This document shows positions 9,035 through 62,105 of a stretch of DNA of 64,000 nucleotides, piece after piece. The stretch covers positions 1,240,001-1,304,000 of the forward strand of contig NZ_CP022989.1 in assembly GCF_002278075.1 (NCBI RefSeq), read 5' to 3'. The notes under the pieces are model-generated. The model did not search any database and had not been told where the DNA came from. It saw only the letters and a list, made by a program, of their open reading frames with translations. The translations under genes were made by a program, and so were the position numbers. The DNA is from Paraburkholderia aromaticivorans. Lineage in GTDB: Bacteria > Pseudomonadota > Gammaproteobacteria > Burkholderiales > Burkholderiaceae. The stretch's first letter is position 1. Each line of letters starts with the position of its first letter.

Positions 9035-9300
9035 CGCGCGGTGGAATGCGCAATTGCTTCGGTATCCGATAGATTGTGACGGCGTGGACGGATGACGCCG
9101 TCGGCGCGACATTGACAACGCAACCGGCTGGCGGCGCCAGGCGCGCGCAAACGTGCCCCAATTCAGTGCCGCGGTGCACCACTAGGGTAATTGCTAGTTG
9201 TAGTAGACCGGGTGCTCATTTAATCTTCATGCAGTTCTGATGCACCACGAAATTTGCAGGTGGAGAACGAGGAGACAATGAGGCACTCAGTGCCCAGACG
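9035..9300 (+). other. Intergenic region; possible short leader ORF from 9278
   Basis: No conserved gene is visible between livM and the terminator at 9301. An ATG at 9278 sits seven bases after a good Shine-Dalgarno sequence (GAGGAGACA). The frame it opens runs straight through the terminator hairpin and on to 9469 (63 codons), and its product (MRHSVPRRKRCW...) resembles nothing I know. It may be the stranded start of a deleted binding-protein gene or a short translated leader. Confidence 0.25.
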
Positions 9301-9340
9301 AAAGCGCTGTTGGATTGATATCCAACAGCGCTTTTTATTT
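9301..9340 (+). terminator. Rho-independent terminator after the first liv operon
   Basis: A perfect 15-bp stem, AAAGCGCTGTTGGAT (9301-9315) with ATCCAACAGCGCTTT (9320-9334), closes on a TGAT tetraloop and continues into a T-rich tail (TTTTTATTT). It separates the mmsA-liv cluster from the second liv locus. Confidence 0.9.
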
Positions 9341-31377: not shown

Positions 31378-31403
31378 AAAAAAAAGCGGGCCTGGAGCCC
31401 GCT
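31378..31403 (-). terminator. Minus-strand rho-independent terminator of a candidate small transcript
   Basis: Read on the minus strand, AGCGGGC-TCCAG-GCCCGCT is followed by a run of U (plus-strand A run 31378-31384). The nearest annotated minus-strand gene ends about 700 bp upstream (32099), so the terminator more likely ends a separate short transcript; see 31416-31538. Confidence 0.75.
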
Positions 31404-31415
31404 AAAAACCACACG

Positions 31416-31538
31416 CTACGGGGTTAGCGCGAGGAGACCAAAGAAGGAACCGACTGAGACGACGACCCTGCGCCGACTACGGCCCCAGCAGGGATGCCCC
31501 TTCACAGGGCTTCGGCATGCGCCGACCGGCAAGTGCAT
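31416..31538 (-). CDS. Small ORF (40 codons) in a candidate short transcript
   Basis: On the minus strand an ATG at 31538-31536 opens a 40-codon frame, MHLPVGACRSPVKGHPCWGR then SRRRVVVSVGSFFGLLALTP, ending TAG 12 bp before the terminator stem at 31403. A weak Shine-Dalgarno (GAGCGGA) lies seven bases before the ATG. The N-terminal half has two cysteines and is followed by basic residues; the C-terminus is hydrophobic. Upstream are direct GTTAC repeats and a -10-like element. It could be a genuine micro-protein, a leader peptide or an accidental frame inside a non-coding RNA. I do not recognise it. Confidence 0.35.
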   Translation of the reverse strand: MHLPVGACRSPVKGHPCWGRSRRRVVVSVGSFFGLLALTP

Positions 31539-31606
31539 CGTATCCGCTCACACCACGCACCCAGCCACATCCGTGTTGAAACCGTTGAGGGCATTGTGGG
31601 CGAATT

Positions 31607-53938: not shown

Positions 53939-53966
53939 TGACGGCTGCGAGCGATGCGTTGCATGG

Positions 53967-54240
53967 CCCCTCTGTCCTCGATACCTGAGAGATTGCGTCG
54001 CCGTGAGAACGTGAATCCGTCACGGTGAAACGCGCGCCCCTTCGGTGGGCAGCCTGCCAATCCGCTCGATTGAACGATGCAGACGGCTACTGCCGCTCTC
54101 CAGAGTGCGAAAAACCGGTGCCTTGATGTTGCCTCAACGCGGGTTTTTCGACGCGGTCGGTCCTTTTGCCTGAGAGTTTGCGGGTGTGCCCCTTCGGCGG
54201 CGCGGCCTGCGGTTTTCTGCGGCCAGCACGCTCTCCCGAC
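53967..54240 (-). promoter_or_regulatory. Tandem glycine riboswitch upstream of gcvT
   Basis: Two glycine-aptamer modules lie head to tail on the minus strand. Aptamer 1 (54240 to about 54155) starts GGGAGAGCGTGCTGGCCGC and ends AACTCTCAGGCAAAAGGACC. Aptamer 2 (54104 to about 53967) starts CTGGAGAGCGGCAG, contains CACCGAAGGGGC and ends ATCTCTCAGGTATCGAGGAC. The GAGAGC...CACCGAAGGGGC...CTCTCAGG pattern is the conserved glycine-aptamer core, and the association with gcvT is standard. Regulation should be activation by glycine. Confidence 0.95.
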
Positions 54241-54250
54241 GCGTGCGGCG

Positions 54251-60793: not shown

Positions 60794-60822
60794 TTGTTGA
60801 AAGCATCCCCAACCGTTAGAAT
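60794..60822 (+). promoter_or_regulatory. Promoter of the riboswitch-exchanger transcript
   Basis: TTGTTG (60794-60799) and TAGAAT (60817-60822) are exactly 17 bp apart. The predicted start of transcription near 60829 falls just before the riboswitch core. Confidence 0.7.
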
Positions 60823-60828
60823 CGCCCG

Positions 60829-60998
60829 GTCACTGGGGAGTAGCCTTCCTTCATCCCATGAAGGAGAGCGCGTCAACATACTTGGCCGATAGGTCATGGC
60901 GCGTTCGACCGTGTCGGTTTGGCGAGACCATTGGCGCACTGCCTCGTTCTGGTCGGACGGGTGGCGGTGCGTCATTGGTTTGTCATCTACGTCCGACC
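60829..60998 (+). promoter_or_regulatory. yybP-ykoY-type (manganese) riboswitch
   Basis: The leader contains GGGGAGTAGCC (60835-60845), a short hairpin CCTTC-ATCCCAT-GAAGG (60848-60864 region), and then CGTCAACATACTTGGCC (60871-60887). These match the two conserved loops of the yybP-ykoY family, which bring together to bind Mn2+. Further on TTTGGCGAGACC resembles the 3' segment seen in mntP- and alx-type leaders. Then comes a 9-bp stem GGTCGGACG/CGTCCGACC (60951-60959 with 60990-60998) that could be part of the expression platform, about 100 bp before the exchanger start. The exact boundaries need a covariance model. Confidence 0.85.
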
Positions 60999-61094
60999 GC
61001 GGAGTTGTCCCGTGACACATCGTTGTGCCCCGCCAGTCTCCCCTTTGGGCCGTCCATCGCGCCGGCGTTTCTGCGTGCTTGCGGGGAGCCGCGC

Positions 61095-62105
61095 ATGACC
61101 AGTCTATTGCTCGAACTCGCTGTCATGCTGGTCGTCATTCTGGTGGCCGCCGAACTCTTCACCAACGCGCTCGAGCATCTGGGCGAACGCCTCAAGATTT
61201 CCGAGGGCGTGACAGGTTCGCTATTCGCCGCCGTCGGCACCGCTTTGCCCGAGACCCTCGTGCCGCTGCTGGCGATCGCCGGCGGTACGGCCGATAGCGC
61301 GGTCAATCAGGAGATCGGCGTCGGCGCGATTCTGGGCGCGCCGCTGATGCTCTCCACTCTCTCCACGTTTCTCATGACGCTCGCGATCCTCGGCTCGCGC
61401 GGCGCGAGCGGCTGGGTCGCGCCGGAGCGGACCGGCTTCACGCGCGACCTCAACTACTTCCTGTGCGCGTTCGTGCTGGCCGCCGCGGCGATGTACGTGC
61501 CGCACGAGCAGATGATCGTGCGCGCGCTTTTCAGCGTGGCGCTGGTCGGCGTGTACATCACCTATGTGGTGATGACCTTCCGCGCATCGAATGAGTTGGT
61601 CGATGCCGGTCACGGCACCGAAGCGCCAGGCAAGATGCTGATCTCGCGCCTCGGCGTGCCGACCAACATGGCGACGATCGTGGTCCAGCTGGCGCTCGCC
61701 GTCGCGTTGCTGGTGTGGGGCGCGGAAGGCTTCATCCACGGTGTGCGCGGCGTGTCGCAGGCGCTCGGCGTGTCGCCGCTGTTGCTCTCGTTGCTGATCA
61801 TTCCGATCGCCACCGAGCTGCCGGAAAAGGTCAACAGCATTCTGTGGATTCGCCGCGGCAAAGACACGCTGGCGTTCGGCAACATTACCGGTGCGATGGT
61901 GTTCCAGGGCACCTTGCTGCCCGCGATCGGCATCTTGCTGACGCCATGGACCCCGCGTATCGAAGTCGTGACCGGCATCGTGATCACACTCGCCGCCGCG
62001 GCCTGGCTGCGGATCAATGTACGCGCGCGCGGCGTGCCGGTGTGGGCGTTGCTGGTTTGCGGCGTGCTGTATGTCACGTATCTGGCGATTACGCTGACCC
62101 GCTAG
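61095..62105 (+). CDS. Ca2+/cation-antiporter-family exchanger, probably an Mn2+ exporter
   Basis: This protein of 336 residues has about ten hydrophobic segments and two alpha-repeats of the CaCA family: VTGSLFAAVGTALPETLVPL near residue 40 and LSLLIIPIATELPEKVNS near residue 230, the second followed by GNITGAMVFQGTLLP. Acidic residues in GTALPE and ATELPE are the expected cation ligands. I start at ATG 61095, preceded by GGGGAGCCGCGC; the frame stays open upstream through the riboswitch. Because the leader is a manganese riboswitch, Mn2+ efflux is the most likely role; that is inference, as most family members move Ca2+. Confidence 0.85.
   Translation: MTSLLLELAVMLVVILVAAELFTNALEHLGERLKISEGVTGSLFAAVGTALPETLVPLLAIAGGTADSAVNQEIGVGAILGAPLMLSTLSTFLMTLAILGSRGASGWVAPERTGFTRDLNYFLCAFVLAAAAMYVPHEQMIVRALFSVALVGVYITYVVMTFRASNELVDAGHGTEAPGKMLISRLGVPTNMATIVVQLALAVALLVWGAEGFIHGVRGVSQALGVSPLLLSLLIIPIATELPEKVNSILWIRRGKDTLAFGNITGAMVFQGTLLPAIGILLTPWTPRIEVVTGIVITLAAAAWLRINVRARGVPVWALLVCGVLYVTYLAITLTR

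Follow-up and report, generated by a model that had tools for sequence, protein, structure and literature searches.

The window analysed here, a stretch of 64,000 nucleotides (64 kb) of the Paraburkholderia aromaticivorans genome, contains a single manganese riboswitch (RF00080, yybP-ykoY) according to an Rfam 15 scan of its whole length. This riboswitch occupies positions 60823-61003 of the + strand and is matched by the covariance model from end to end, with a score of 106.5 bits for a cut-off of 45 and an E-value of 4.2e-27, which rules out a chance match. It is located directly 5' of a CaCA-family gene (61095-62105, + strand), a predicted Mn2+ exporter assigned below to a subfamily termed A. 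The original prediction had recognised the leader from its two conserved yybP-ykoY loops and proposed the covariance model as a check. Both loops are present, the first (GGGGAGTAGCC) at 60835-60845 and the second (GTCAACATACTTGG) at 60872-60885, and the score given above bears the assignment out. A putative promoter immediately precedes the riboswitch (60794-60822, + strand) and consists of TTGTTG (60794-60799), a spacer of 17 nt and TAGAAT (60817-60822). Its earlier description as a clean promoter stands in part: the hexamers exist and a TTGNNG...TANANT-like pattern can be recognised by eye 5' of the riboswitch in many relatives, but a consensus promoter scan returned 0 promoters at its thresholds. 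A scan for intrinsic terminators yielded one weak site against 0.4 expected, and an intrinsic terminator was rejected on this ground as the output stage of the riboswitch.

The same genome carries a second strong Mn riboswitch (57.9 bits), followed by a UPF0016 gene (L067:3053-3650; G000:C1, about 2093000-2093850) whose protein displays the motifs EIGDKT and EMGDKT. A third RF00080 match, on contig C4, is most likely spurious, scoring 25.7 bits, below the cut-off, with no fitting downstream ORF among those listed. Other RNAs identified in the window by the Rfam scan are two adjacent glycine riboswitch aptamers (53962-54248, - strand) and the Burkholderia sRNA families Bp1_781 and ncS01, at 31378-31603 (-) and 9233-9337 (+) respectively.

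The product of the gene, 336 aa in length, had been described as a CaCA-type exchanger with two alpha repeats, and PF01699 indeed matches two stretches of it (101.4 bits, gathering score 24.9, E 6e-29). Two further models fall far short of their cut-offs, TIGR00367 (Ca/Na antiporter, YrbG type) with 75.4 for 179.65 bits and PRK10734 with 49.4 for 432 bits. The closest solved structure by profile is NCX_Mj (E 9.7e-15). An AlphaFold model, computed from an alignment of 48 sequences made up of the window protein and 47 proteins of the subfamily termed B below, displays ten long helices with a pLDDT of 90.1 and a pTM of 0.88. Two copies of the exporter gene in other genomes (G239:C2:83614-84616 and G178:C16:70677-71027) look decayed, one being split over two frames and the other a fragment.

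A CaCA gene controlled by this class of riboswitch has been described in Bordetella pertussis. BP3410, of the calcium:cation antiporter family, is induced by Mn via a yybP-ykoY riboswitch, its expression is unaffected by Ca (given as data not shown), and a working BP3410 results in lower cellular Mn (Capek et al. 2021, PMC8546581). Comparison of the window protein with 150 Burkholderiales genomes returned close relatives (50-72% identity, subfamily A), distant relatives (32-34%, subfamily B) and, in addition, weak matches resembling YrbG. The two subfamilies are about 28-36% identical to each other. Among the matches listed, B is found in Achromobacter, Bordetella, Acinetobacter, Pseudomonas, Dyella, Ralstonia, Paraburkholderia, Caulobacteraceae and others. 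In the Achromobacter family, which also includes Bordetella, B-like genes were identified in 21 of 81 genomes and A-like genes in none. As all four Bordetella loci found are of type B and A is absent from the 81 genomes, BP3410 most likely belongs to this subfamily as well.

A maximum-likelihood tree of 109 rows was computed with all 65 A sequences, 28 of the 84 B sequences and 16 of the 30 YrbG-type sequences, five A genes of the window's family, Burkholderiaceae, that lack a riboswitch being left out. Subfamilies A and B are united against the YrbG types (split 100/100) and form sister clades, with supports of 92/82 for A and 88/93 for B. The window protein is situated outside the B clade that holds the Bordetella loci, in its sister A.

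A and B are identical at positions 50, 53, 83, 86, 241, 244 and 271 of the alpha repeats. The positions equivalent to Ser51, Ser210, Asn81 and Asp240 of NCX_Mj (numbered as counted on the printed chain) are Ala50, Glu241, Leu86 and Gln271 in 65/65 A rows and in 84/84 B rows, two of the latter being the same locus. In YrbG-type rows, these positions are Ser, Ser, Asn and Asn (30/30). Glu53 and Glu244 are present in all rows of the three groups, and Pro83 is also invariant in A and B. S51, N81, S210 and D240 of NCX_Mj are ion ligands, the Ser and Asn residues serving the Na+ sites; the NCX-type Ser/Asn/Asp set is thus missing from both repeats of the window protein (A50, L86, E241, Q271). Subfamily A very likely moves Mn2+ as well, since its site is common to A and B and Mn export has been shown for a gene that is most likely a B member; the identification of Mn as the transported ion therefore draws on the exporter published for Bordetella and on the site that both subfamilies have in common. 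The counter-ion is probably H+ rather than Na+, a guess suggested by the replacement of the Ser and Asn residues that act as Na+ ligands in NCX_Mj.

An exchanger under Mn control that mainly transports Ca2+ (or Na+/Ca2+), with Mn as a secondary substrate or a mere signal, would agree with the PF01699 and TIGR00367-type annotation and with the Na+/Ca2+ and Ca2+ exchangers found among the nearest solved structures. Such a substrate is nevertheless very improbable: the NCX_Mj ligand positions are replaced in every A and B row examined, the scores lie far under the Ca/Na antiporter cut-offs, and BP3410 lowers cell Mn and is devoid of Ca induction (PMC8546581). The locus could also be read with Mn as inducer only. 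The product would then export another divalent metal (Co, Ni, Fe or Zn) or deliver metal in the manner of TerC, which is itself a partner of the yybP-ykoY riboswitch class. TerC proteins bring Mn to exported enzymes (PMC12096827), and the many A genes without a riboswitch may serve other duties; the membership of the protein in the CaCA transporter family and the Mn efflux published for BP3410 (PMC8546581) make this reading hardly probable either. With Mn2+ as the favoured ion, the five fixed alpha-repeat positions provide a sequence test that would separate probable Mn exporters from Ca exchangers, and the signature could serve to re-annotate many genes of a family named after calcium, whether they bear a riboswitch or not.

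The distribution of the riboswitch was established by counting RF00080 matches on the same strand and at most 400 nt upstream of each gene. Conservation of the leader-gene pair in other Burkholderiales, put forward with the original prediction as a further check, was observed within Burkholderiaceae, where 32 of 37 A genes are preceded by RF00080 (28 above the cut-off), but hardly outside of it, with 1 of 27 A genes in the other families of the order. The five Burkholderiaceae A genes devoid of a riboswitch comprise four from genomes of 1.1-1.2 Mb and one fragment. For subfamily B, the corresponding figures are 7/7 in Burkholderiaceae (6 above the cut-off) and 4/4 in the other families. A permissive RF00080 rescan of the 26 riboswitch-less A genes of those other families (L011-L036) gave no match. 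Control of these 26 genes by another known RNA was rejected too, as the search upstream of them returned nothing fitting apart from three weak matches at chance level and the SRP RNAs of two neighbours. A TATAAT-like box is often seen by eye close to the start of those examined.

Sampling of 299 genomes of the phylum provided eight more A loci, of which three have the riboswitch and five lack it. The former (L213-L215) adjoin a tmRNA and originate from another order of the same class; their riboswitches score 85.4, 47.0 and 22.7 bits, the last being below the cut-off. These three loci also display, among others, an ORF of 16-17 codons overlapping the gene start. Subfamily B was surveyed by scanning named genomes with a B-led alignment, 80 loci being kept of at least 547. 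Among these 80, the riboswitch is present at 44 of the 50 loci tested (41 above the cut-off), including all four Bordetella loci tested, one of them below the cut-off. Two CaCA lineages are consequently linked to the Mn riboswitch. On the tree, the riboswitch-bearing A genes occupy a single clade nested within A (35 rows, support 99/91), which includes one row without a riboswitch; 34 A rows of the tree are labelled riboswitch-bearing and four of these (L177, L178, L181 and L214) score below the cut-off. The simplest reading of this topology is that the riboswitch association of A arose separately from that of B, by two recruitments. Alternatively, the riboswitch may have been lost from an old state common to A and B.

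Between the riboswitch and the exporter lies a leader ORF (61012-61098, + strand) that was absent from the original prediction. It is preceded by the Shine-Dalgarno sequence CGGAG (61000-61004, + strand) and, 7 nt further, begins with the GTG at 61012; it extends over 28 codons and terminates with a TGA (61096-61098) that shares nucleotides with the exporter ATG (61095-61097) in an ATGA arrangement. The leaders of 30 Burkholderiaceae A genes were compared, the riboswitch-bearing genes G154 and G239 being left out. In 29 of them, the ORF that begins at the first ATG or GTG past a conserved helix (helix b, described below), 11-19 nt further on, terminates in overlap with the exporter start, and GGAG or GGAA occurs as Shine-Dalgarno sequence in 27 of these 29. 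The same arrangement occurs in shuffled segments at an average of 18% per leader (range 1-25%), a comparison in which the related leaders are not independent. The single exception, L169, has helix b and the Shine-Dalgarno sequence directly 5' of the exporter's own GTG, which takes the place of the leader-ORF start.

Leader-ORF lengths range from 18 to 55 codons with 13 different values. On the tree, the length must have changed at least 17 times and the frame is kept every time, for which the naive chance is 3^-17. Both other segments of the leader vary in all three phases, unlike the leader ORF: in 24 leaders, phases 0/1/2 are represented 12/4/8 times between the aptamer loop and helix b, and 15/8/1 times inside helix b. 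The other two frames of the leader-ORF segment are open in 26/29 and 17/29 leaders, and shuffled segments are open in 58% of cases on average. An open frame by itself is accordingly weak evidence, and it is the kept frame that argues for a function. As far as can be judged by eye, the peptide sequence is unlike between genera, so that the translation of the leader ORF, and not its product, seems to matter.

The leader ORF might be a by-product, with control exerted at the exporter's own Shine-Dalgarno sequence (GGGGAG, 61083-61088) or by termination inside the leader. The existence of this site, the lack of peptide conservation and the frequently open other frames are all compatible with this explanation, as is a short BP3410 transcript of about 200 nt that suggests termination in the leader (PMC8546581). 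We consider it unlikely, though of some weight, given that at least 17 length changes all preserve the frame to the overlapping stop, that the arrangement is found in 29/30 leaders against 18% per leader in shuffles (kinship among leaders applying here as well), that the neighbouring segments drift through all phases, and that in L169 the exporter start has moved to the place of the leader-ORF start. Among 11 other Mn-riboswitch loci of Burkholderiaceae, the gene was recognised in seven, namely UPF0016 in L222, L224, L225, L226 and L067 and MntP in L229 and L230, and starts at most 24 nt past the riboswitch end, too near for such an ORF to precede it. L169, which lacks the leader ORF, and these UPF0016 and MntP riboswitches from the same family constitute built-in controls. 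Under a loose criterion, overlapping ORFs were observed in 15 of 44 subfamily-B leaders, and in none of the four Bordetella loci. In six Paraburkholderia B loci (L124, L127, L129, L131, L133 and L135), the riboswitch and the gene are separated by an ORF with a stop overlapping the gene ATG, possibly a second leader-ORF output stage.

Two conserved helices are situated upstream of the leader ORF. Helix c (60933-60940 paired with 60966-60973, + strand) starts 3 nt past the aptamer helix P1 and comprises 8 pairs, 6 of which are changed on both sides, with 99.5% of cells paired. Helix b (60951-60959 paired with 60990-60998, + strand), whose end is 1 nt short of the Shine-Dalgarno sequence of the leader ORF, crosses helix c; its 9 pairs are formed in 100% of cells and 8 of them are invariant. 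These figures were obtained from an alignment of 24 of the 30 leaders, L169, L175, L177, L178, L181 and L182 being excluded as divergent, devoid of an exact loop near the gene or devoid of the ORF. Taken together, 99.8% of the 408 cells are standard pairs. Seven pairs are changed on both sides (six in c, as b hardly varies), a number matched by 0/500 shuffles, and further pair types amount to 14, matched by 33/500 shuffles; the test is biased in favour of the helices, as they were found by reading the same leaders. Sliding the helix partners destroys the pairing signal. By their geometry, b and c can form a pseudoknot or replace one another. When the window leader was folded by energy, no clean Mn switch was reproduced: the free fold favours c (0.98) with almost no b, c is lost too when P1 is forced, and the exporter Shine-Dalgarno sequence is paired in all three folds.

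The following mechanism can be proposed. In the Mn-free state, helix b, ending at the leader-ORF Shine-Dalgarno sequence, would prevent ribosomes from binding. Being adjacent to P1 and crossing b, helix c would compete with the latter, and binding of Mn2+ to the aptamer would permit translation of the leader ORF. Ribosomes ending at the leader TGA would then restart on the overlapping ATG and produce the CaCA-fold exporter, by which Mn2+ would be expelled from the cell. The ON direction is suggested by the Bordetella data and by the logic of an efflux gene, folding energies giving no clean switch, and the coupling is presumed to operate by termination-reinitiation. That the locus is a Mn-efflux unit, in which a Mn ON-switch acts on a leader ORF and translational coupling extends this control to a CaCA Mn exporter, is in our opinion highly probable. 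The manganese-efflux role initially predicted for this gene is supported by the RF00080 match, by the pair kept in Burkholderiaceae and, by analogy, by the published BP3410 case. The more detailed reading is somewhat favoured. In Burkholderiaceae, the Mn riboswitch would gate a leader ORF of 18-55 codons whose peptide is immaterial, and not the exporter, the coupling proceeding via exclusive or pseudoknotted helices; A would have come under the riboswitch independently of the Bordetella type; and the replacements at the ion site common to A and B (Ser to Ala, Ser to Glu, Asn to Leu, Asp/Asn to Gln) would mark Mn-exporting CaCA proteins, including many without a riboswitch.

The central idea of the original prediction is right, but the pairing is already known as a kind and does not represent a new class of partner, as BP3410 has been listed among the Mn exporters as a YRBG-type Ca2+:cation exchanger in a 2023 review (PMC9936198). 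Two aspects look new within the open-licence literature, namely the presence of Mn riboswitches in front of another, second CaCA subfamily that has the same ion-site signature, and the leader-ORF output stage that this locus offers for a Mn riboswitch. No report of a coupled leader ORF behind a Mn riboswitch and no experimental work on subfamily A were found in this literature, and two reviews treat uORFs and yybP-ykoY only separately in their accessible parts. Nor was any mention of this Burkholderiaceae exporter gene found there, including the accessible part of PMC4603805. A regulon survey covers Burkholderia (PMC3766115), and one yybP-ykoY site is predicted in a Burkholderia genome by PMC3521395, in the accessible part of which the gene is not named.

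The window protein resembles NCX_Mj and the YrbG types (PF01699, TIGR00367) in family, in its two alpha repeats and in Glu53 and Glu244, and departs from NCX_Mj by the presence of Ala, Glu, Leu and Gln in place of Ser51, Ser210, Asn81 and Asp240. UPF0016 (MneA/GDT1) and MntP share the riboswitch family and also occur in Burkholderiaceae, but they are unrelated proteins whose genes, in the seven loci recognised, begin shortly after the riboswitch with no leader ORF in between. BP3410 displays the same RNA family 5' of a two-repeat CaCA gene with the same predicted role, and the ion-site signature is common to the window protein and the clade of the four Bordetella loci; the window protein differs by its placement in the other subfamily (about 28-36% identity, sister clade), in which only a nested clade carries the riboswitch. 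For the leader ORF, the nearest proven precedent found is the ppe2 gene of Mycobacterium tuberculosis, in which a B12 riboswitch precedes a translated uORF with an AUGA overlap and the downstream gene is expressed mainly by termination-reinitiation (PMC11260477). The riboswitch-controlled leader ORF overlapping the start of the downstream gene is common to both systems, whereas ppe2 differs in its ligand (B12), in being an OFF switch, and in phylum and gene.
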